Below are positions 26,969 to 45,083 of a stretch of DNA of 48,664 nt, in pieces. Below the pieces are notes generated by a model. That model was given only the letters and a program-made list of their open reading frames with translations, did no database searches and had not been told where the DNA came from. Origin of the DNA: Verrucomicrobiales bacterium (lineage in GTDB: Bacteria; Verrucomicrobiota; Verrucomicrobiia; Verrucomicrobiales; V1-33). How positions within the stretch are numbered: the stretch's first letter is position 1; every line of letters begins with the position of its first letter. The translations under genes were made by a program, and so were the position numbers. Location: assembly GCA_028293125.1 (NCBI GenBank), contig JAQGPJ010000065.1:1-48664 (forward strand), given 5' to 3'.

Positions 26969-29900
26969 TCAGGGCATCACATGGACGCGGTAGTACTGCC
27001 GCCCCCGCGGCACGGGATCGGTCAGTGCGTAATGCAGCAGCCCCCCTGTCAGGATCTCCGTTCCGGCCACGCTTCCCCCCAGCGGTTCCCATGTCACGAG
27101 ATCGGCGGAGGTTTCGATCACCACGCGCCCGGCATCGGCGCCGGGGCGGCGCGTCCACGACAGGCGCACGCCGCCGCCTCCGGGCTGCATGACGGCGGTC
27201 AGGGCGGCGTTTTCGCCCATCACATATTCCATCAGGTTGCTGAGGCTGTCCCCGTCATCGTCGCCGCCGGGATTGGCCGGGGCAGGCAGGGCATCGCTGG
27301 TGCCGGGACTGCCGTCGAGGGCGGGGACAGTGCCGGGACGCCAGTGGGCGGGGTCGGCATGATGGGCGTCACCGGCAGCGGGATTCATGTGGACCAGGCT
27401 GTGGCCGTCCCCGTCCGCCAGCGTGGACCAGGGGAAGATGTCGCCATAGCTGAACTCCACGACGGTGCTCCCGGTGGCGTCCTCCACTTTCAGTTTCTCA
27501 CCGGCATTGTCCAGCGCGGTGCCTTCCGGGAACGTGCCCGCAATGCGCTCCGCCGGCACCGCCGGCCATGCCGCCTGGAAAGCCGGCAGGCTGCGCACCA
27601 CCAGCAGGCGCCCGCCGGGCGGAAGGCTGGTCCCGGTGGCGAAGGTGAAATAAACCGGCGCGCCCAGGGCATCCGTGCCGGTGAGGCCCTTGGTGATTTT
27701 CACGCCGGTGAGATCCAGCGCCGTGTCCCCGCTGACATTCACAAACTCCAGAAACTCGGTTTCGTCCCCGGCCCCGGGCGGATTGTAATAAATGGCGCTC
27801 ATGGCCAGGAACCGCTGCGCGTCGCTGGGCGCGGCGGTGGTGGTCATCGTGGCCACCACAATGCCCGCGCTGTTTTTCAAGGTCAGGACCTCGCCCAGAT
27901 TGTTGAGGTGCCCCTGATAGGGACCGGTCACCAACAGGCGCTCACCGCCGCGCGGGCTGACGGTCCGCTGCCGGAAGGCGTAACGGTCAGGGGTGACATA
28001 CAGGCTTTGGCCGGCGGGCAGCACGGTGCCGCCCGCAAAGGTGAAGCTCACGCCGCCCGCCAGCGTCCAGCCGCTGAGATCGGCGTCAAAAGCGTTGGGG
28101 TTCCGCAGCTCGATATACTCCTGATCCTGATTGCCGCCGGCGGGGTTGGATTCCACCGCGCCGAATGCCATGGCCGCGTCAGCCGCCTGCGGAGCCGGCA
28201 CCCCGAGCGATCCGGCCCCGGTGGTGAAGTTCAGGGAATACGGCGCGCCGTGGCCAGTGCCGGTGGTGCCCGTGAGATAAGTGGACCGGTTGGCCAAGTG
28301 GAGAGTTTTGATGCGGTTGATGCTTTGGGCGAGCGTGTAGGCGGTGCCTCCGGTCCATGAAAAGTGCGAATTGCCGCGCCACTTGGCGTGATCCGCCTCA
28401 ACATCGGCGGCGATCACCGGAGCCATGGCGTCCATGCGGCTGCCGAACCAGCCCGTGGCCAGAAATTGGTCATTCAGCGAGCGGATGCGCCGCGCGATCA
28501 TTTGCCGGGTGCGCGGCGTTTTGGCCAAGGCCTCGATCATCCGGTTGAACTTGCCGGCGTGCAGCTGCCAGGGGCGCGCGCCGATGAGGGGATGGCTGGC
28601 GCAGGCGGGGGCGGAGGGGGCGCTGCGGTTGTAAACCATGGTGTCGGTGTTCAGCGCGTCGGGCCCGAATGTGAGGTCCACATCCCACGGCAGCACCGAC
28701 CACTCCCGCGATCCCCGGGTGTCCCGGTGGATATAGTAATTTTTGTTGGAGGCGTCGATATTCTGGCTGATCACGCTGCCTGCGTGCCAGTTCACCCACG
28801 AGGGCAGGTCCACGTTGTCAAACAGCCACGTTTCCAACGCGGCGCCGGACAGGCCCAGACTGGTCACCACGCTCTGCAGATCCGTCCGCCCCTCCGATAC
28901 CCGGTTCTTCTTTTCAAAAGCCGCCGCGGAGGTGAAGTCACAGAGTGCCCCATCCCCCACGGCCTTGTAGAACGACCCGTTGGGGTCGATCCCGTGCCGG
29001 TCCAGAAAGAAACCATCCACATTCTCCACACACAGCGCCACACTGTAAAAGGCCCCGTTCTGACGCTGGTGGATGTGGAATATTTCCGGCGACGCGATGC
29101 CGCTCAGCGCATGCATTTCAAAAGCCATGAAGGCGCGCAGATAACTCTTGTCCGTGTAGGTGGTGTTCAGGTTCAGCTCGCTCACCCGCGGGGCCTCCGC
29201 CTCTCCCGGCAGGGCCGGCCTGAGGGGCACGCGGCGGCCCGGCGGCAGATCGATCTTATGGCTCTTCTTTGGAAATCCGCGCGAGGTGTTGCCCCGGATG
29301 CGGATGCGGCAGTGGTCATGGAATTCCCCGTTGTAAAAAATACTGCAGTAGCCGCCGCTCTCGGTGTCCGCCTGGGAGACGGTCTGGATGAACCGCTGAA
29401 ACACCGGCAACGGCGTGGACACTGAGGGGTCGGCGATGACAGTGCCGAAGTATTCGGGGCCCGCGGCCAGCAGACGCTGCGGCGCGCGGCGGGTGGAGCC
29501 ACGGGTGGTTTTGGCGGTGATGGACCACCCGATCATCTGCCCCGCCGTTGCGCCGTGGGAGGAGGGGATGGTGCCGGTGAAAATGCGGTCGCCGGCGGCG
29601 GCATCGCCATTCAGCCCGTCATCGTGCATGGGCACGGTGGTCTCCGGCTGATACATGACCCGCCAGGCCAGGGTGGCCTCTGCTATCCGGTTTTCCTCTT
29701 CCCCGCCTCCGCCGCCGGGTGCCGGTTCCCCCTGCTCTGCCCGGATGAGGGCGGTCACCTTTATTTCCATGCCGGGCGGGGGGGGCTCCGCCGGATGTGT
29801 CTCCTTGGTGATGACCGGGCCGGCCGGAGCGGTGGCTGTGTTGCTGTTGTTGACCCGGCCCTGCGTGGGGGTTTTGAAATAGGCGGTTTCCTGGGTGCCG

Positions 29901-30391
29901 GTCTTCAGGCCGTAGGAGACATTCGTCTCCTGCGGATAACGGTGGGGCAGCAACTCCATGCCCGGTGGCGGCGCGGTCAGGGGCGATGTGTAGCCGTGCA
30001 CCACCGTGACCCCGTCCGGCGCGGTCAGGGCCAGGTCCTCATCATCATTGAGCTGGAAGTTCGCGTGCAGGGGTTTCCCTGCCACCCGCCGGTCCTTGTT
30101 GCTGGCCCACACCGTCAGATAACCACCCGCCGGGATCGTGACCGCCGGAAAACGCCACTTCCTTTTGTTCACCCCGGGCTCGTCCGAAAGATAATAACCG
30201 TCCAGATCCACGGGCGCGGCGGAGGTGTTCAGGAGCTCGATCCAGTCCGGGGAATCATCATCATCGTCCACTGCCCCGCCAACGTTGTCCGTCAGGTATT
30301 CCGAGATCACCACCCCGTCCGCCCGCAGCGCCCCGGGAGCGCCAACAAGAAATGCCGCCAGGGAAATGCTGAAAATCGGATTAAAGCGCAT
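26969..30391 (-). CDS. Exported CotH-like protein with lamin-tail domains
   Basis: A 1140-residue protein with a signal peptide (about 1-24). A lamin-tail domain covers about 25-165 (VVISEYLTDN, DWIELLNTSAAPVDLDGYYL). The CotH-type kinase-like region (about 345-700) has RIRIRGNTSRGFPKKSHKID, VALCVENVDGFFLDRHG, and NYYIHRDTRGS with VLPWDVDLTFG, the catalytic-loop-like block of secreted CotH kinases. Two further lamin-tail domains occur at about 740-850 and 860-1000. The C-terminal module carries IETSADLVTWEPL and ends YYRVHVMP. CotH proteins phosphorylate surface proteins in spore formers, and exported relatives in this phylum are uncharacterised. It probably acts on the cell surface or extracellular matrix. 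The start ATG at 30391 matches the signal peptide. Confidence 0.85.
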   Translation of the reverse strand: MRFNPIFSISLAAFLVGAPGALRADGVVISEYLTDNVGGAVDDDDDSPDWIELLNTSAAPVDLDGYYLSDEPGVNKRKWRFPAVTIPAGGYLTVWASNKDRRVAGKPLHANFQLNDDEDLALTAPDGVTVVHGYTSPLTAPPPGMELLPHRYPQETNVSYGLKTGTQETAYFKTPTQGRVNNSNTATAPAGPVITKETHPAEPPPPGMEIKVTALIRAEQGEPAPGGGGGEEENRIAEATLAWRVMYQPETTVPMHDDGLNGDAAAGDRIFTGTIPSSHGATAGQMIGWSITAKTTRGSTRRAPQRLLAAGPEYFGTVIADPSVSTPLPVFQRFIQTVSQADTESGGYCSIFYNGEFHDHCRIRIRGNTSRGFPKKSHKIDLPPGRRVPLRPALPGEAEAPRVSELNLNTTYTDKSYLRAFMAFEMHALSGIASPEIFHIHQRQNGAFYSVALCVENVDGFFLDRHGIDPNGSFYKAVGDGALCDFTSAAAFEKKNRVSEGRTDLQSVVTSLGLSGAALETWLFDNVDLPSWVNWHAGSVISQNIDASNKNYYIHRDTRGSREWSVLPWDVDLTFGPDALNTDTMVYNRSAPSAPACASHPLIGARPWQLHAGKFNRMIEALAKTPRTRQMIARRIRSLNDQFLATGWFGSRMDAMAPVIAADVEADHAKWRGNSHFSWTGGTAYTLAQSINRIKTLHLANRSTYLTGTTGTGHGAPYSLNFTTGAGSLGVPAPQAADAAMAFGAVESNPAGGNQDQEYIELRNPNAFDADLSGWTLAGGVSFTFAGGTVLPAGQSLYVTPDRYAFRQRTVSPRGGERLLVTGPYQGHLNNLGEVLTLKNSAGIVVATMTTTAAPSDAQRFLAMSAIYYNPPGAGDETEFLEFVNVSGDTALDLTGVKITKGLTGTDALGAPVYFTFATGTSLPPGGRLLVVRSLPAFQAAWPAVPAERIAGTFPEGTALDNAGEKLKVEDATGSTVVEFSYGDIFPWSTLADGDGHSLVHMNPAAGDAHHADPAHWRPGTVPALDGSPGTSDALPAPANPGGDDDGDSLSNLMEYVMGENAALTAVMQPGGGGVRLSWTRRPGADAGRVVIETSADLVTWEPLGGSVAGTEILTGGLLHYALTDPVPRGRQYYRVHVMP

Positions 30392-36517: not shown

Positions 36518-36558
36518 ACCCGGATAAAATTTGACACTTATTTTTATCCGGGTAAATA
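36518..36558 (+). promoter_or_regulatory. Promoter and 12-bp perfect inverted repeat of the DUF2239 gene
   Basis: ACCCGGATAAAA (36518-36529) and TTTTATCCGGGT (36542-36553) are exact inverted copies separated by 12 bases. The -35 TTGACA (36531-36536) lies between the arms, and the -10 TAAATA (36553-36558) overlaps the end of the right arm, with 16-base spacing. A regulator dimer bound here would block the promoter. The ATG at 36567 follows within nine bases, so the message is probably leaderless. Confidence 0.7.
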
Positions 36559-36566
36559 ATTCCTCC

Positions 36567-37229
36567 ATGGACTTTCCCACTCAAAATCGCGTATCTGCAC
36601 CCACACCCGCATTACCAAACTGGACCGCGTTTCAGGCGGACCGGCTTTTCGCCACCGGCAGCCCGGACCAAGTGGCGGCGGCTGTAAAAACCGCCACCGA
36701 TCACGGCAAGGCGGAGGGCTTGCTGGTATTCGAAGACGCCACCGGCCGGACGGTGGACCTCGACCTGCGCGGCACTGTGCAGGATGTGCTGGCCAGGCTT
36801 TCCCTGACAAAAAATGACACCCCATCCATCCCGTCCACCTCAGCGGCGGCACGCGGCCGGGGACGCCCCAAACTCGGCGTGACGGCCCGGGAAATAACAC
36901 TGCTGCCCCGGCACTGGGAGTGGCTGGCGGAGCAGCCCGGCGGGGCCTCCGTGGTGATCCGCCGCCTGGTGGAGACCGCCCGTCTGGCCAGCGTGAACGC
37001 CGGCGCGGACCGTCAACGGAAAGCGCGTGAAGCCACCTACCGCTTCATGACCACCATGGCCGGCAATCTGCCCGGTTACGAGGAGGCCATCCGGGCGCTC
37101 TTCGCGGGCCACAGTTCCGACTTTTTCAACGGCATTCAGCCTTGGCCCGGGGACATTCGGCACTACATTCAGAGGCTGGCGGAAACCGCCTTTGAAGAGG
37201 GTTTCACTCTGGATCAGGATTTATTGTAA
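36567..37229 (+). CDS. DUF2239 family protein
   Basis: This 220-residue protein has all the hallmarks of DUF2239: WTAFQADRLFATGSPDQVAA, LLVFEDATGRTVDLDLRGT, RGRPKLGVTAREITLLPRHW, EWLAEQPGGASVVIRRLVE, ATYRFMTTMAGNLPGYEEAI and RALFAGHSSDFF. The family is widespread in Proteobacteria and others; its function is unknown, but a regulatory role is often assumed. It is cytoplasmic. It is preceded by a strong promoter with a perfect operator-like palindrome and followed by a 9-bp hairpin. Confidence 0.9.
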   Translation: MDFPTQNRVSAPTPALPNWTAFQADRLFATGSPDQVAAAVKTATDHGKAEGLLVFEDATGRTVDLDLRGTVQDVLARLSLTKNDTPSIPSTSAAARGRGRPKLGVTAREITLLPRHWEWLAEQPGGASVVIRRLVETARLASVNAGADRQRKAREATYRFMTTMAGNLPGYEEAIRALFAGHSSDFFNGIQPWPGDIRHYIQRLAETAFEEGFTLDQDLL

Positions 37230-37938: not shown

Positions 37939-39918
37939 ATGAGAAAAACCATTGCCGGCACTGCCGCCCTCACTCTGCTTTCCGGAGTTTCCCTTCAGGC
38001 TTCGATATCGGACTGGCAGACTGCCGCCACCACCGGAGCCACTCCTGCGGCGACCTATTTTCTTGAGGACTCCGTATCGGCGGTTTCCGGAGCTGCGCCC
38101 CAAGCCTTCTTCATCGGCAACTTTGACGGCAGCCGGTCGTTCGAGTTCATCGTCAATGCCGGAAACGCCGGCACCTCCTCCGCGGTGCTGGGCCTGTCCG
38201 GGCTTCAGGCGCTGAAGTTTGAGCAGTATGACAGCACCGGCGTGATCGGCATCACCAACTACGGTGTGGCGGACCACCTTTCCACAGCCCCCTCCCCTTT
38301 GAATGAGGAGGCCCAGCTGGTGTTCACCAGCGACGGTGCCGACACTCTGCTTTATGTGAACGGCGAGCTGGCCCACACCTTCACGGGAGTGCCCCTGCAG
38401 CTTACCGGCACCGTCGGCCTGGGTGCCACGATGGACGATGCCGGCGCTGGCATCGGCGACCGGTTGGATGGCCACATCCTCGGATTCACCAGCTATGCCA
38501 GCGTGCTCACCCCGGCACAGATCACGGCGCATTATCAGGCCCTGATCAAGGACCGCAAACCGGTTTACCTGGCGGCCTGGCAGGCAGCGGTGGGAGCAGG
38601 GCCCGTGACTCCGGCGCAGACGCTTTTCCAGACGGTCTCCGGCATGGCCCCGGCGCTGCTGAATGTCGGGGAGCTGGACGGGCCGAGGACGTTTGAGTTC
38701 ATCACCTATGCGGGTGATGCCGGAGCCTCGGGGGCATTGATGGGACGGGGTGGTTTTCAAGGCCTGAAATTTGAGCAGTGGAACAACTTGGGCACGGTGG
38801 GACTCACCACTTTCGGTGTTGCCGACTACGACTCCGGTATCGCCTCCCCCTTTCTGACGGTGGCGCAGGTGGCCTATGTGTCGGATGGGACCAATACCGA
38901 CCTCTACCTCAATGGGGAGCTGCAGTATACCTTTGAGGGTGCGCCGCTCAGCCTTACCGGCTACCAGGGGTTGGGCGCGGCAGGCAACATCACGGAGGCG
39001 GGGGGCGAGATCGTCTTCCGGGATCCGCTGGAGGGCCAGGTGCTGCGTTTCGCCAGCTACGACCGGGCTCTGACCGAGGCGGAGGTGACCGCGCATTACA
39101 CCGGATTCGCGGCTGACGCCGGGGCCGGGAACTTCACCGCCTGGCAGACCGCCGTGGCCGCTGCCTCGCCCACCGCCACCCGCAGGGAGCCGGCGGCCGG
39201 CGCGGACGGCGTGACGGTGGATGTGGGGCCGCTGACAGGGGACCGGACCTTTGAATTTGTGGTCAACTCCGGCATCTCCACCGCCAATGGCACGCTTCTG
39301 GGCGGCAATGCCCAGGCGCTGAAATACGAGCAGTGGAACGACACCGGCATGATCGGCATGACCAACTACGGCGTGGCCGACTACACCTCGCCGGCCGCCT
39401 CGCCCGACAGCGTGGACACCCACATCGTTTACACCTCCGACGGCACGGACACCACGCTCTATGTGGACGGGGTTCTGCAGCACACCTTCACAGGCGCGCC
39501 GCTCACGGGCACCGGACTGCAGGGCCTGGCGACCGCCGCAGGGCTGCCTGTGCTGGGAGCCACTTACTTCGATGTCCTGGACGGGCACATTCTCGGATTC
39601 GCCAGCTATGCCGATGCCCTTACGCCGGCGGTGCTGGCGGCCCACTACAAAGCCCTGACGGAAGGCTCCGCAGTGGTGCCCTCCGGCAGCTTCCAGATCA
39701 CCGCCTTCAGCCGCGATGCCGCCACCGGAGCCATCACCCTCACCTGGCCGTCCGCGGCGGGCGAGACCTTCTCCATCAAATATGGCACCAGCACTGCCGA
39801 CTTCACCGGCACCGCGGTGGCCAGCGTCCCCGCCTCCGCCGGGACCTCCACCACCGCCACCTTTGCCCCCCCGGTGGCGGGAGCGGCCCGCCTCTTCTTC
39901 CGCGTCGTCAAAAACTGA
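37939..39918 (+). CDS. Exported protein with three LamG-like modules
   Basis: A 659-residue protein with a signal peptide (MRKTIAGTAALTLLSGVSLQ). Three tandem concanavalin-A/LamG-like modules of about 190 residues follow. Each has a (S/P)RxFEFI(V/T) strand, LKFEQW or LKYEQW, a GxxGxTxxGVAD motif, an LYVNGEL or LYVDGVL strand, an HILGFASY or equivalent strand, and AHYxA. A short C-terminal FN3-like module (about 575-659) ends LFFRVVKN. LamG modules bind sugars or proteins. The same module occurs in the next two genes. There is no PEP-CTERM anchor on this one. Confidence 0.85.
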   Translation: MRKTIAGTAALTLLSGVSLQASISDWQTAATTGATPAATYFLEDSVSAVSGAAPQAFFIGNFDGSRSFEFIVNAGNAGTSSAVLGLSGLQALKFEQYDSTGVIGITNYGVADHLSTAPSPLNEEAQLVFTSDGADTLLYVNGELAHTFTGVPLQLTGTVGLGATMDDAGAGIGDRLDGHILGFTSYASVLTPAQITAHYQALIKDRKPVYLAAWQAAVGAGPVTPAQTLFQTVSGMAPALLNVGELDGPRTFEFITYAGDAGASGALMGRGGFQGLKFEQWNNLGTVGLTTFGVADYDSGIASPFLTVAQVAYVSDGTNTDLYLNGELQYTFEGAPLSLTGYQGLGAAGNITEAGGEIVFRDPLEGQVLRFASYDRALTEAEVTAHYTGFAADAGAGNFTAWQTAVAAASPTATRREPAAGADGVTVDVGPLTGDRTFEFVVNSGISTANGTLLGGNAQALKYEQWNDTGMIGMTNYGVADYTSPAASPDSVDTHIVYTSDGTDTTLYVDGVLQHTFTGAPLTGTGLQGLATAAGLPVLGATYFDVLDGHILGFASYADALTPAVLAAHYKALTEGSAVVPSGSFQITAFSRDAATGAITLTWPSAAGETFSIKYGTSTADFTGTAVASVPASAGTSTTATFAPPVAGAARLFFRVVKN

Positions 39919-39973
39919 TGCCCCCATGCTTCCCCCCTGCCCAAACACACTCCCATACCGCGATACCTCATCT

Positions 39974-40681
39974 ATGAAAATCCGCCATACTGCCAAAATC
40001 CTTGCCGCCGCCGCGGTCACCGCCGCGGCCTCCCTGAACGCCACTGCGGCCCTGACCCAGTGGCAGGATGCCGTGACCGCCGGACCGGCCACCGCCTCCA
40101 CCCATTTCACCACTGTTTCCACCGGCACGCAGGTGGATGTGGGCACCCTGGCCGGTGACCGCGCCTTCGAATTTGTGATCAACGCGACATCCAAAGCCAC
40201 ACCCTCCTCCGCGCTTCTGGGCACGTTCGAGGATGCCGGCGGCAAGCAGGCATTGAAGTTTGATCAATGGAACGCGACAGGCAATTTTGGCGTGACCAGC
40301 TTCGGGGTGGAGGACTTTTACACCACTGTGGCGGCTCCCTCGGGTGTGGACACCCATGTGGTGTTCACCTTCAATGGCACCAAGACAGACCTGTATGTGA
40401 ACGGCGTTTTCCAAACCACCATCAAAAGTGCGGCAAACGGGGATGTCGCCCTGGCCCTTACCGGAATGCAGGGGCTGGGCGGAGCCTTCAACGGGGGAGC
40501 CTATGTGGATCCCCTGCAGGGCAGCATTCTGGGTTTTGCCAGCTACGACAGTTCATTGAGCGCGGGGGATATTTCGGCCCACTACGCGGCTTTTGCCGCC
40601 CCTGTGCCCGAGGCCGGCTCCACCGCCCTCATGGGGCTGACGGTGATGGGGGCATGCCTGGTCCGCCGCCGGAAATCATAA
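39974..40681 (+). CDS. LamG-like protein with PEP-CTERM-like anchor
   Basis: A 235-residue single-module relative of the previous gene, in the same orientation and 55 bases downstream. It has a signal peptide (about 1-26, ending LNATA), one LamG-like module (about 27-205: AFEFVINATSKATPSSALLG, LKFDQWNATGNFGVTSFGVE, TDLYVNGVF, SILGFASYDSSLSAGDISAH) and a tail with VPEAG, a short helix and RRRKS at the very end. The tail is the same VPEA-type sorting signal as the DUF4394 protein at 4039. It is likely anchored at the surface by an exosortase pathway. Confidence 0.85.
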   Translation: MKIRHTAKILAAAAVTAAASLNATAALTQWQDAVTAGPATASTHFTTVSTGTQVDVGTLAGDRAFEFVINATSKATPSSALLGTFEDAGGKQALKFDQWNATGNFGVTSFGVEDFYTTVAAPSGVDTHVVFTFNGTKTDLYVNGVFQTTIKSAANGDVALALTGMQGLGGAFNGGAYVDPLQGSILGFASYDSSLSAGDISAHYAAFAAPVPEAGSTALMGLTVMGACLVRRRKS

Positions 40682-40779
40682 AAATCCGGTAACACGGATT
40701 ATTTTCCCCGCTGAAGTAAAACATTGACTTCCGTGCCGGAAAACTGAATTTTCCATTAAATATATAAGTGAGTGGGGAT

Positions 40780-40815
40780 CCGTCCGCAGCCTGCGGGCGG
40801 TTCCTCATTTTTAGT
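40780..40815 (+). terminator. Rho-independent-like terminator
   Basis: CCGTCCGCAGCCTGCGGGCGG forms a hairpin, followed by TTCCTCATTTTT. It is about 100 bases beyond the stop of the LamG/PEP-CTERM gene. AT-rich DNA with possible -10 boxes (AATATATAAG) lies just before it. The rest of the gap to 41114 shows no gene. Confidence 0.55.
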
Positions 40816-41114
40816 TCCGGCTTTCCATGCCGCCCCCGCCCCGCCCCTCCGTGATTCAAGGCTGAACCTCCGCGGGCCATTTGATAACCGCGCCAGCGAC
40901 ACCGGCAGGCCGGCACCTGAACGGAAAGGATCGGGAACATCCGCCGCGTATCCGGTCAGGAGAACCCTATCCATGCACCCCATTTGGCTGGATGCATGCT
41001 TTCCGGCAGCTTCCCTCCGATTCCAATCCCGTGTCCCTCCCCCTGATTCCCTGTCCGGCCAAGTCCGGCACTCTGTCCTCCGTCCGGAAAATCCGCTTCC
41101 GTCAGGGGGGGTGG

Positions 41115-44100
41115 ATGGCTTCTCTCTGCTTTCTGCTGCCCTTTGCCCACCTGCCGGCCCGTGCCGGACTGACGGAATATGATGCCGCCGTGGCTGCGGA
41201 TGCCGCCGCCGGGCTGGATCCCACCGCCCGCCTGACGGATGCCGCCACTTTCCTGGGCAGCGGCGGCATCCCCTTTGATTTTGGCGGCGTGACCGGGGAC
41301 GGCACCTTCGAGTGCATTGTGGAAGCCACCGGAAACGTCAGCAGCGGCTATCTGGCGGTCGGTGCCAATACAGCCAGCAATCTGCGGATTCAGCAGTGGC
41401 CTAACACCGGCCAGGTCGGCCTGACGCAGCTTGGGGTGGCCGATTATCTGTTCACCCCGGCGGTCTCCGCGCCTGCCGCCCCCGCCCATCTGGCCTATGT
41501 CTGGGACGGGGCGGGGACGATGCAGCTTTATGTCAATGGCATGCCGGCCGGCAGCATCAGTTCCGTCACCCCGGATTTCGGCCTGCCCTCCGGCGAAGGC
41601 TGGCTGGGGGCCAATCCCTCCAATGGAGAGGGTATGTCCGGCACCGTTTACCGGGTGACCTGTTATGACTCCATGCTCAGCGGAACCGTGCTGAAGCGGC
41701 ATGGGGACGCGTTCCAGGGTTTGGCACCGCAACCGGTCATTGAGTTCTTCACCGCCGATCCCGTCACCGTTCCCGCCGGCAGTCCGGCCACCCTGCACTG
41801 GCAGGTCACGGGGGCGGATGCCGTCCGGCTGGATGGCGTGGACGTGAACGGACTTTCCCAAAAAACCGTCACTCCCGCGGCCACCACCACCTGGACTCTC
41901 ACGGCGGAGAACTCCCAGGGCACAGCGCAGGCATCTGTTCAGGTGCAGGTCACGCCGGTCACCCCCCCTCCAGCCGGCGACCGTGTGGTCATCAACGAAT
42001 TCATGGCCGCCAACTCCTCCACCCTGGCGGATTCCGACGGGGAATTCTCCGACTGGCTGGAGCTTTACAACCCCACCGCTTCCACCGTGAATTTGGGTGG
42101 CTTCTTTCTGACAGACAAAGCCTCCTGGCCGCAGCAGTGGGCCCTGCCCGCCGTGGAGCTGCCGCCCGGCTCCTGGCGGATCGTGTTTCTCTCCGGCAAG
42201 GACCGGATTGCCCCCGGCGGCGAATGGCATGCCAATTTCAAACTTTCCAAGAACGGCGAATACCTGGCGCTGACCGGGCCTGACAGCGGAGTGGTGCACG
42301 CGTTCTCCCCGTCGTACCCGGCGCAGGAGGACGATGTCAGCTACGGCCTGGCCAGCGGCGATCCGGGGATCGCCGGCTATCTGGGCCATCCCACGCCGGG
42401 CGCGGCCAATGACCCCTCCCCGCCCACTCCGGCGCGCATTGTGTTTTCCGAAACCGGTGGACTGCTGCGGCAGCCGGTCACCCTGACGCTCAGCTGCGCC
42501 ACCGCCGGCGCGGAGATCCGCTATCAGATCAACAAGGCTGCGGAGGCTGTCTACACCGCGCCCATTCCCATCACCGCCACCACCAAAATCCGGGCATGGG
42601 CGGTGCGGCAGGGCCGGAAAGGGCCGGAATCTCTGATCAGCTGGGTGAAACTGGCCCCGAATCTGGCCGGTTACACCTCGCCGCTGCCGATCATGCTGAT
42701 CGACAATTTCGCCGCCGGTCCCGTGCCTCAGAAAGGGTGGAGCGGCGATGGCTCCGGAATCCGCCAGGTGCCACGCCAGACCGCCGCGTGGGTGGGCTGG
42801 GACCGGTCCGGCAGCACGGCGTCCACGGGGGACGGGCCGCAGTTTTTCAGCAGCATCGGCATCCGGGGGCGCGGAGCTTTCTCCAGCTCCTGGAGACAGA
42901 AACCGTACTCCGTGGAGGCCATGGACGCCGGTGGCGGGGAGCGGGAGGTGCCGGTGCTGGACATGCCGGCCCACTCCGACTGGATCTTTTATTTCCCCGA
43001 CCCCGACGAAAGCAGGGACCCCACCCTGCTGTTCAACACTTTCGTTTATGACCTGAGCCGGCGGCTGGGCCATGACGCGCCACGGTTCCGGTGGGTGGAG
43101 CTGTTTGTAAATGAGGATGGGGGCGACATCTCCCTGACCGACCGGCGCGGGGTTTACGCGGTGCTGGAGAAAGTCTCGCGCGGGCCGGACCGCCTCAACT
43201 TTCAAAAACTGAGCGTCGACGGCACCCAGGGCAGCTGGCTGCTGAGCCTGAACCGCATGGACGCCATCCCGGAAAAGGGATGGCCGGCGGAGAACGGCGT
43301 GCGGACACCCCAGTTTTTCCGCACGGCCGGCCCCAACCGCATTCTCCAGACCCAGCCCAACAACCCGGCCCAGATTGGCGACGATCAGCCGCAGCAGAGC
43401 AATGGGTTTCTGAATTTCGACAATCCCGGCGGCTACACCATCAACCCCGCCCAGCGGGCCGCCATCGAGGGGTGGTTCAAAAATTTTGAGGATGTGCTCT
43501 ACAGCAACTCCCAGTGGAGGGACCCGGTCAACGGCTACCGCAAATGGCTGGATGACCGGGATTTCGCGGAATACTTCATCTTCAACGAACTGACCAAAAA
43601 CGGCGATGGCCTGCTCATTTCCATGTATCCTTGGAAAGGCGATGATGGACGGCTGCGCATGGGGCCCGCCTGGGACTACAACTGGTCGAGCTACTACGTC
43701 GGGGGCGGGGCCACAGATGGGCTGCGCTGGCGCGGGGACCGGCTGTGGTATGCCCGGCTGTTCGCGGATCCGGACTTCATGCAGCTCTACACGGACCGCT
43801 GGTTCGCCTTCCGCCAGTCTGCCATGAGCAACGACGGCATGTCGGCCATCATTGACGCCCAGGCGGCGGAAATCACCTCCGCCAAGGCAGTGGCCCAGGG
43901 GATTTCCAGCGCCTCCGCCTGGCAGGGCCGGCTGACCCGGATGAAAAACTGGCTCAACAGCCGCGCCGACTGGGTCGATGCCCAGTATGTGGCCCGTCCC
44001 GTGTTGGGGGTGGCCGGAGGAACCGTGCCTTCCGGGCAGACGGTGGGCATTACGGTATCGGCGGGCAGCGCTTATTATACACTGGATGGCAGTGATCCGC

Positions 44101-45083
44101 GGGCTTCGGGAGGGAACATCTCTGTCTCCGCAAAGGCGGGCAATGCCGTCACTCTGTCCGGCGACACCCGCCTGACGGCGCGGGCGCGGGTGTCCACCAC
44201 CCGGTGGAGCGCGCCGGTGACGGCGGTGTATGTGACGGACGCCATGCCGGCGTCGGCGGGAAATCTGACGGTTTCCGAAATCCATTACCACCCCGCCGAT
44301 CCCTCCCCTGCGGAAACCGCCGCCGGCTTCACCGACACCGGGGATTTCGAATTCATCGAACTGCTGAACAGCGGCACTCAGAAAATCAGTCTCAGTGGAC
44401 TGCGCTTTGAGACCGGTTCCGGCGGTGAGGGAATCGGCTACGCGTTTGACAATGGCACCCAGTGGTCCGTGGAGCCGGGACAGAGGGTGGTCCTGGTGAA
44501 AAACGCCGCCGCCTTCACCCTGCGCTACGGACCGGGCATCCGCATTGCGGGCACTTACACGGGAAATCTGGGCAACCGTGGAGACACCCTCACCCTGGTG
44601 GACGGCCTGGGGTCGGTGATCCAGTCACTGCATTATACGGACACCGCTCCCTGGCCTGCGGAGGCGGACGGGACGGGCCGCAGTCTCACTCTGCTGGACG
44701 GCACTCCCGCGGCCCAGGCCGCAGCAGCGGGATCCTGGCGGGCCAGTGTGGCGGCGGGAGGATCGCCCGGTGCCTTGGACAGCGTGCCGCCACCAGCGGC
44801 GGACGGCGATTTGGCAGCCTATGTGTTTGAATCATTTCCGCTGGAGTGGAGCTGGCAAAACGGCAAAGCCACCGTGCGCCAGCGCCGGGTGGCCGGCAGC
44901 GATGCGGTGCTGGTGCGTCTGGAGTATTCCCCTGATCTGAGGGACTGGACGCCGGTGGGGCCGGAGGAGGCCGCAGGGGCCGTGGACCCGGCAGCCGCGG
45001 ATGGCACCGTGGTGCTGGAGCGCGGGCTGCCGGTCGGAATTCAGGGATTTATCCGCTGGCGGATCACGCGGCGCATGCCATAA
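41115..45083 (+). CDS. Giant exported LamG / lamin-tail / CotH protein
   Basis: A 1322-residue protein. A short signal (MASLCFLLPFAHLPARAG) is followed by a LamG-like module (about 20-205, with VGLTQLGVADY and LYVNGM), an Ig-like module (about 212-280), a lamin-tail domain (about 290-420: VVINEFMAANSSTLADSDGE, WLELYNPTASTVNLGGFFL), a chitobiase-type C-terminal module (about 440-515), a CotH region (about 570-870: IGIRGRGAFSSSWRQKPYSV, GVYAVLEKVSRGPDRLN, FNELTKNGDG, GPAWDYNWSS), another chitobiase-type module (about 965-1040), a second lamin-tail domain (about 1050-1190) and a C-terminal module with LEYSPDLRDWTPV. A start at 40992 is possible, but it would give a long N-terminal extension. It is probably surface exposed and kinase-like. 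Confidence 0.85.
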   Translation: MASLCFLLPFAHLPARAGLTEYDAAVAADAAAGLDPTARLTDAATFLGSGGIPFDFGGVTGDGTFECIVEATGNVSSGYLAVGANTASNLRIQQWPNTGQVGLTQLGVADYLFTPAVSAPAAPAHLAYVWDGAGTMQLYVNGMPAGSISSVTPDFGLPSGEGWLGANPSNGEGMSGTVYRVTCYDSMLSGTVLKRHGDAFQGLAPQPVIEFFTADPVTVPAGSPATLHWQVTGADAVRLDGVDVNGLSQKTVTPAATTTWTLTAENSQGTAQASVQVQVTPVTPPPAGDRVVINEFMAANSSTLADSDGEFSDWLELYNPTASTVNLGGFFLTDKASWPQQWALPAVELPPGSWRIVFLSGKDRIAPGGEWHANFKLSKNGEYLALTGPDSGVVHAFSPSYPAQEDDVSYGLASGDPGIAGYLGHPTPGAANDPSPPTPARIVFSETGGLLRQPVTLTLSCATAGAEIRYQINKAAEAVYTAPIPITATTKIRAWAVRQGRKGPESLISWVKLAPNLAGYTSPLPIMLIDNFAAGPVPQKGWSGDGSGIRQVPRQTAAWVGWDRSGSTASTGDGPQFFSSIGIRGRGAFSSSWRQKPYSVEAMDAGGGEREVPVLDMPAHSDWIFYFPDPDESRDPTLLFNTFVYDLSRRLGHDAPRFRWVELFVNEDGGDISLTDRRGVYAVLEKVSRGPDRLNFQKLSVDGTQGSWLLSLNRMDAIPEKGWPAENGVRTPQFFRTAGPNRILQTQPNNPAQIGDDQPQQSNGFLNFDNPGGYTINPAQRAAIEGWFKNFEDVLYSNSQWRDPVNGYRKWLDDRDFAEYFIFNELTKNGDGLLISMYPWKGDDGRLRMGPAWDYNWSSYYVGGGATDGLRWRGDRLWYARLFADPDFMQLYTDRWFAFRQSAMSNDGMSAIIDAQAAEITSAKAVAQGISSASAWQGRLTRMKNWLNSRADWVDAQYVARPVLGVAGGTVPSGQTVGITVSAGSAYYTLDGSDPRASGGNISVSAKAGNAVTLSGDTRLTARARVSTTRWSAPVTAVYVTDAMPASAGNLTVSEIHYHPADPSPAETAAGFTDTGDFEFIELLNSGTQKISLSGLRFETGSGGEGIGYAFDNGTQWSVEPGQRVVLVKNAAAFTLRYGPGIRIAGTYTGNLGNRGDTLTLVDGLGSVIQSLHYTDTAPWPAEADGTGRSLTLLDGTPAAQAAAAGSWRASVAAGGSPGALDSVPPPAADGDLAAYVFESFPLEWSWQNGKATVRQRRVAGSDAVLVRLEYSPDLRDWTPVGPEEAAGAVDPAAADGTVVLERGLPVGIQGFIRWRITRRMP

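Follow-up and report, generated by a model that had tools for sequence, protein, structure and literature searches.

A LamG-type module common to three neighbouring genes, one encoding a CotH domain, in a Verrucomicrobiales bacterium

Introduction

To our knowledge, a worked-out role for a bacterial CotH protein is known only for spore coats. In Bacillus subtilis the CotH kinase and its substrates are clustered in the genome, and mutation of D228 and D251 inactivates the enzyme (PMC7821199). Sfz6, an SH3-CotH protein of stalk-forming Zetaproteobacteria, is also a large CotH fusion within a candidate set of surface-structure genes (PMC8250860). Here we describe three neighbouring genes on the + strand of a Verrucomicrobiales genome (37939-45083) to which a LamG-type module is common. 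The window, that is, the whole stretch of 48,664 nucleotides that was analysed, is a complete contig (C110) of a 6.48 Mb genome that is 99% complete.

The locus resembles the B. subtilis CotH/CotB/CotG spore coat cluster in that equivalents of D228 and D251 are present and a kinase-like gene is clustered with those of surface-layer proteins. Unlike B. subtilis CotH, however, the CotH domain of gene 3 sits in a secreted-type protein and is fused to LamG, Ig-like, LTD and CHB_HEX_C_1 domains, the host bacterium has exosortases, and the neighbours are lectin-like and lack the Ser/Lys/Arg repeats of CotB and CotG. Gene 3 also differs from Sfz6, in which SH3 takes the place of LamG, which lies far from the core cluster in two of the genomes, and which is not known to have a module in common with its neighbours. 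Gene 2 has the signal peptide, ectodomain and PEP-CTERM tail of PEP-CTERM/exosortase surface proteins, although its ectodomain is a private LamG module that recurs in a CotH protein. The predicted fold of one module is like that of CBM40 sialic-acid modules, pentraxins and other LamG/ConA-like lectins, whereas the modules in the window, unlike those domains, occur in tandem and fused to CotH. All parts of the set come from known families; in the literature searched we found no earlier description of their association, and a search of partial coverage returned no description of LamG-CotH proteins in the phylum Verrucomicrobiota.

Results

Laminin_G_3 (PF13385) matches occur three times in gene 1, once in gene 2 with its sorting tail and once in gene 3 (Table 1), a distribution already proposed in the earlier note and on which Pfam, alignment and profile searches agree. 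The scores are 73 bits for gene 1 (three copies), 34 bits for gene 2 and 31 bits for gene 3, all above the cut-off of 27.6, and all five modules align end to end. Pairwise identity among modules 1a, 1b, 1c and that of gene 2 is 45-51%, whereas the gene 3 module has diverged (30-34% identity to the others). The short motifs that the note had quoted for all three genes hold almost to the letter in genes 1 and 2; gene 3 has them in degenerate form, with LRIQQW, GVADY and LYVNG present and GFASY and AHY missing. When the whole genome was searched with a profile, the five copies scored 225-277 bits and the next LamG domain 34 bits; this profile included the gene 3 module, and the independent check is a profile made from only the four modules of genes 1 and 2. 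The latter gives the gene 3 module 72.7 bits; at the next-best loci of the genome no other single LamG domain scores above 23 bits, and the maximum for 200 shuffles of the gene 3 module is 9.7 bits. Sharing of the module across the three genes is real and beyond chance, and the module is private to them within this genome.

Table 1. Coordinates of the three genes and their features in the window.
Feature	Position	Strand	Description	Evidence
Gene 1	37939..39918	+	659 aa; signal peptide, three LamG-type modules, C-terminal domain ending FFRVVKN	Pfam Laminin_G_3 x3, alignment, three-module orthologues in G010 and G002
LamG-type module 1a	38005..38553	+		alignment, genome-wide profile search
LamG-type module 1b	38554..39114	+		alignment, genome-wide profile search; predicted structure (pLDDT 89.5)
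LamG-type module 1c	39127..39666	+		alignment, genome-wide profile search
Gene 1 C-terminal domain	39667..39915	+	kind present at 33 places in the genome	
Gene 2	39974..40681	+	235 aa; signal peptide, one LamG-type module, PEP-CTERM tail	Pfam/TIGRFAM profiles, alignment
LamG-type module of gene 2	40046..40606	+		alignment, genome-wide profile search
PEP-CTERM sorting tail of gene 2	40601..40678	+	VPEAG...RRRKS	PF07589 21.6 bits (cut-off 20.7); TIGR02595 16.6 (cut-off 16)
Terminator-like hairpin with T-rich tail	40772..40812	+	between genes 2 and 3	RNA fold
Gene 3	41115..45083 (start approximate)	+	about 1322 aa	Pfam; start by alignment of the G006 orthologue
LamG-type module of gene 3	41172..41742	+	CotH-fused subfamily	alignment, profiles, tree
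CotH domain of gene 3	42861..43976	+		PF08757 116 bits; profile match to 5jd9; residue table

The AlphaFold model of module 1b consists mostly of strands and has the ConA-like beta-sandwich fold of Laminin_G_3, with Z scores of up to 17 to ConA-like lectin domains. Against CBM40 sialic-acid lectin domains Z is 16-17 over about 160 residues (16.2 for structures 4c1w and 6er4), domain 4 of the arabinanase AbnA gives 15.8 and pentraxins about 14; sequence identity to the CBM40, pentraxin and ConA-like lectin domains is 8-18%. As modelled, the match is not specific to CBM40, given that pentraxins and other lectins have the same fold. The module is therefore described here as having a predicted CBM40/pentraxin-like lectin fold, and on the basis of that fold it may bind sugar, a shared fold being no proof of sugar binding.

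All three products are apparently secreted, judging from signal peptides read by eye. The 55 bp between genes 1 and 2 suggest that these two may form one transcript, and gene 3 lies 433 bp from the nearest LamG-module gene in the window. The strong hairpin with T residues that precedes gene 3 (minimum free energy of -54 kcal/mol and z of -3.4 for an RNA fold of 171 nt around it) suggests a separate transcription start for this gene, whose ATG at 41115 is the most likely start because the first methionine of the orthologue in a family relative (G006) aligns there. The tail of gene 2 has the PEP-CTERM pattern (C-terminal PEP motif, transmembrane stretch and basic end), with marginal profile scores, and is kept in the orthologues; moreover, the genome has three exosortase matches (PF09721, 83-168 bits). 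For a DUF2239 gene upstream of the cluster (36531-37229), the family's 12 other genomes contain no close match, and an RCC1-repeat protein with putative Ig domains is encoded at 11-1996.

Gene 3 was said to place the module ahead of lamin-tail and CotH domains, and Pfam confirms this: in addition to the LamG match, CotH (PF08757) reaches 116 bits against a cut-off of 23.8, and there are two LTD and two CHB_HEX_C_1/Fn3_assoc stretches. The order is LamG-type module, Ig-like stretch, LTD, CHB_HEX_C_1, CotH, CHB_HEX_C_1, LTD and C-terminal domain. Searches of PDB sequences with the single CotH region or with a tight family alignment (A5) returned no match, and the Bacillus CotH structure 5jd9 was matched only with a diverse alignment (A2). 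This profile alignment pairs the NxD and WDxD motifs, which in 5jd9 are spaced by 23 residues (251-228), so that the Asp codons of NGD (43605-43607) and WDYN (43674-43676) in gene 3 match B. subtilis D228 and D251. Both motifs, together with a conserved Lys and Glu, are invariant in 18 relatives according to a residue table. The second Asp of WDxD is Asn throughout this CotH subfamily (43671-43682 in the window; loci L074-L091), whereas 5jd9 has WDYD. The AlphaFold model of the CotH domain is poor (pLDDT 41). By alignment, the catalytic residues are kept in gene 3, and phosphotransfer activity is putative. The window has a second CotH domain (26969-30391, - strand), in a frame with three LTD stretches and no LamG.

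Among the 13 genomes of the family, a three-module orthologue of gene 1 is present in G010 and G002, gene 2 has orthologues in G010 and G006, and gene 3 has one in G006 (59% identity over the full length). These orthologues are always on separate contigs among unrelated genes; although some of the contigs are short and not all of the genomes are complete, several flanks extend far enough to rule out the order of the window. Genes 1 and 2 are present in G010, which is 87% complete, and LamG-CotH is absent from it. The TPR gene lying 3' of gene 3 in the window is preceded by different genes in two congeners (G001 and G004); the same block is found at a contig end in a third (G003), and no clean empty site was seen at this TPR gene in the congeners. 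Our search of relatives found the exact order of the three genes in this genome alone, and so far as the data show it is an accessory feature there. The family-level search had led to the view that the cluster is not conserved, which was overturned by the search of the taxonomic order.

The conservation argument rests on the order-level and named-genome searches, the phylum-level sample having found only the window's genome. Although the gene order that the earlier note proposed to look for recurs in no relative found, LamG-CotH genes do lie beside tandem-LamG genes in at least three lineages; in the Akkermansiaceae and in a third lineage the order and orientation differ from those of the window. 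Of 16 LamG-CotH loci fetched from named genomes, nine have a LamG-module gene within 300 bp, in three arrangements. In the Akkermansiaceae, the LamG-CotH gene (about 1640 codons) is convergent with a two-module gene (706-723 codons) at a distance of 23-24 bp, followed in the complete clusters (L084, L088 and L091) by an FG-GAP/ASPIC gene and a single-module PEP-CTERM gene (245-250 codons); L085, L086 and L087 are partial clusters, and at L083 only the single-module gene is nearby. At L077 LamG-CotH is preceded on its own strand, at a distance of 142 bp, by a four-module gene; at L074 a four-module gene comes directly after it. Five loci with a usable flank on at least one side (L075, L076, L078, L079 and L080) have no LamG neighbour, and two (L081 and L082) are cut by contig ends. 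Four of the genomes concerned (G730, G732, G733 and G734, with L076, L078, L079 and L080) encode LamG-CotH and no separate LamG-module gene at all; the partners are therefore not obligate, and the module cannot exist only to dock on them. Counted by genus within the order, a separate LamG gene is present in all four LamG-CotH genera, and 14 of 50 genera have one (p 0.004); by genome the figures are 9 of 9 versus 23 of 387, with a p of 2e-12 that is inflated by relatedness, six genomes being of one genus. The linkage is recurrent and the association non-random. The FG-GAP/ASPIC-UnbV protein inside these clusters has about 1250 residues (L084 15661-19404, - strand, and related Akkermansiaceae loci), and BLAST found no counterpart in the window.

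A tree of the modules has two deep clades with 100/99 support each, one joining the gene 1 and gene 2 modules of the window with those of family relatives, the other containing every CotH-fused module together with the neighbouring tandem or single modules of the Akkermansiaceae and of L074 and L077. The gene 3 module belongs to an old subfamily of CotH-fused modules, and because of this split the neighbourhood probably arose by more than one assembly event, or its modules were homogenised locally. The four modules of L074 and L077 pair one to one, and so their four-module gene is old in its lineage, with the CotH partner kept while the order changed. The single and tandem modules of one Akkermansiaceae genome, G605 (L084, 13395-15512 and 19535-20269), are very close to each other, a sign that modules were recently copied, or moved by gene conversion, between neighbouring genes. 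In the CotH tree, relatives that have CotH and no LamG are interspersed with LamG-CotH proteins; gain or loss of the fusion has therefore probably happened more than once. That the five modules of this genome come from recent local duplication was considered and is ruled out by the trees.

Discussion

We favour, tentatively and with somewhat less than even confidence, the reading that the three genes are an accessory set whose secreted products share one sugar-type ligand at the cell surface, with the CotH protein recruited to that layer. With its three lectin-like modules gene 1 would bind multivalently, gene 2 would present one module on the cell envelope by its PEP-CTERM/exosortase anchor, and the module of gene 3 would act as a targeting arm by which the kinase-like domain reaches this glycan or surface layer. 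The three proteins would meet on one ligand, and CotH might phosphorylate something at that layer. A common glycan ligand would be the simplest reason for module sharing, because the module is predicted to be a ConA-like sandwich nearest to sugar-binding domains. Support comes from the private module, the domain order, the anchor and exosortases, the CotH residues and the linkage in three lineages. On these grounds, and given the secreted look of the products, the surface assembly envisaged in the earlier note is partly sustained, but as one whose members are not obligate partners. Against the shared-ligand reading stand the LamG-CotH genes in genomes without LamG genes, G010 without LamG-CotH and the dispersal of orthologues in family relatives; the hairpin, by which gene 3 may be transcribed separately, also counts against it.

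The CotH protein might instead act directly on the products of genes 1 and 2, by phosphorylation or module-module docking, as in the Bacillus spore cotB/cotG/cotH cluster. The retained active-site residues, the recurrent linkage of LamG-CotH to tandem-LamG and single-LamG genes and the clustering of the B. subtilis kinase with its substrates (PMC7821199) are all consistent with such action. Nevertheless, nothing indicates the phosphorylation of these two products that the earlier note had suggested: Ser/Lys/Arg-rich repeats, which known CotH substrates have, were sought in both and none was seen, no more than 7 of 30 residues being S, K or R in gene 1, and no more than 6 of 30 in gene 2. In addition, several genomes have LamG-CotH without any LamG partner gene, and the module resembles glycan-binding folds and not a known homotypic docking domain, so that we regard direct action as unlikely.

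Slightly less doubtful, if still improbable, is that the locus is a neighbourhood of paralogues in which LamG modules were copied locally between adjacent surface genes whose proteins work separately. Module shuffling is easy in multi-domain surface genes, and the two-module and single-module genes of the Akkermansiaceae have modules that are close kin, those in G605 suggesting recent local copying or conversion. The modules in the window, however, fall in two deep clades, and the adjacency is therefore not a recent duplication; moreover, L074 and L077 retain the partner despite a changed order, and similar sets are seen in three lineages. We give least credence to CotH being a structural or pseudokinase scaffold, with gene 3 as one more adhesive protein of the matrix, in the class of lamin-tail giants. 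This would fit with the 30 CotH domains of the genome, all above the Pfam cut-off and mostly in frames of more than 1000 residues, and with the Asn of WDYN across the whole subfamily, but the two required Asp residues and the conserved Lys and Glu are invariant among the 18 relatives.

The recurrent grouping of CotH with lectin-like partners that share its module offers a concrete and testable substrate/ligand hypothesis for CotH proteins of non-sporulating bacteria. A bolder extension, to which we assign a low probability, is a recurrent surface cassette that Verrucomicrobiota would have assembled on more than one occasion. Its extracellular CotH kinase would be aimed at a matrix by a lectin module that the matrix and anchor partners also have, with extracellular phosphorylation patterning a glycan-bound layer outside spores.

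Most of the 33 genomic matches to the C-terminal domain of gene 1 (84 residues, ending FFRV) lie in large frames, and this domain may represent a surface or export tail of an undescribed kind. A similar domain also ends tandem-LamG proteins of other lineages.
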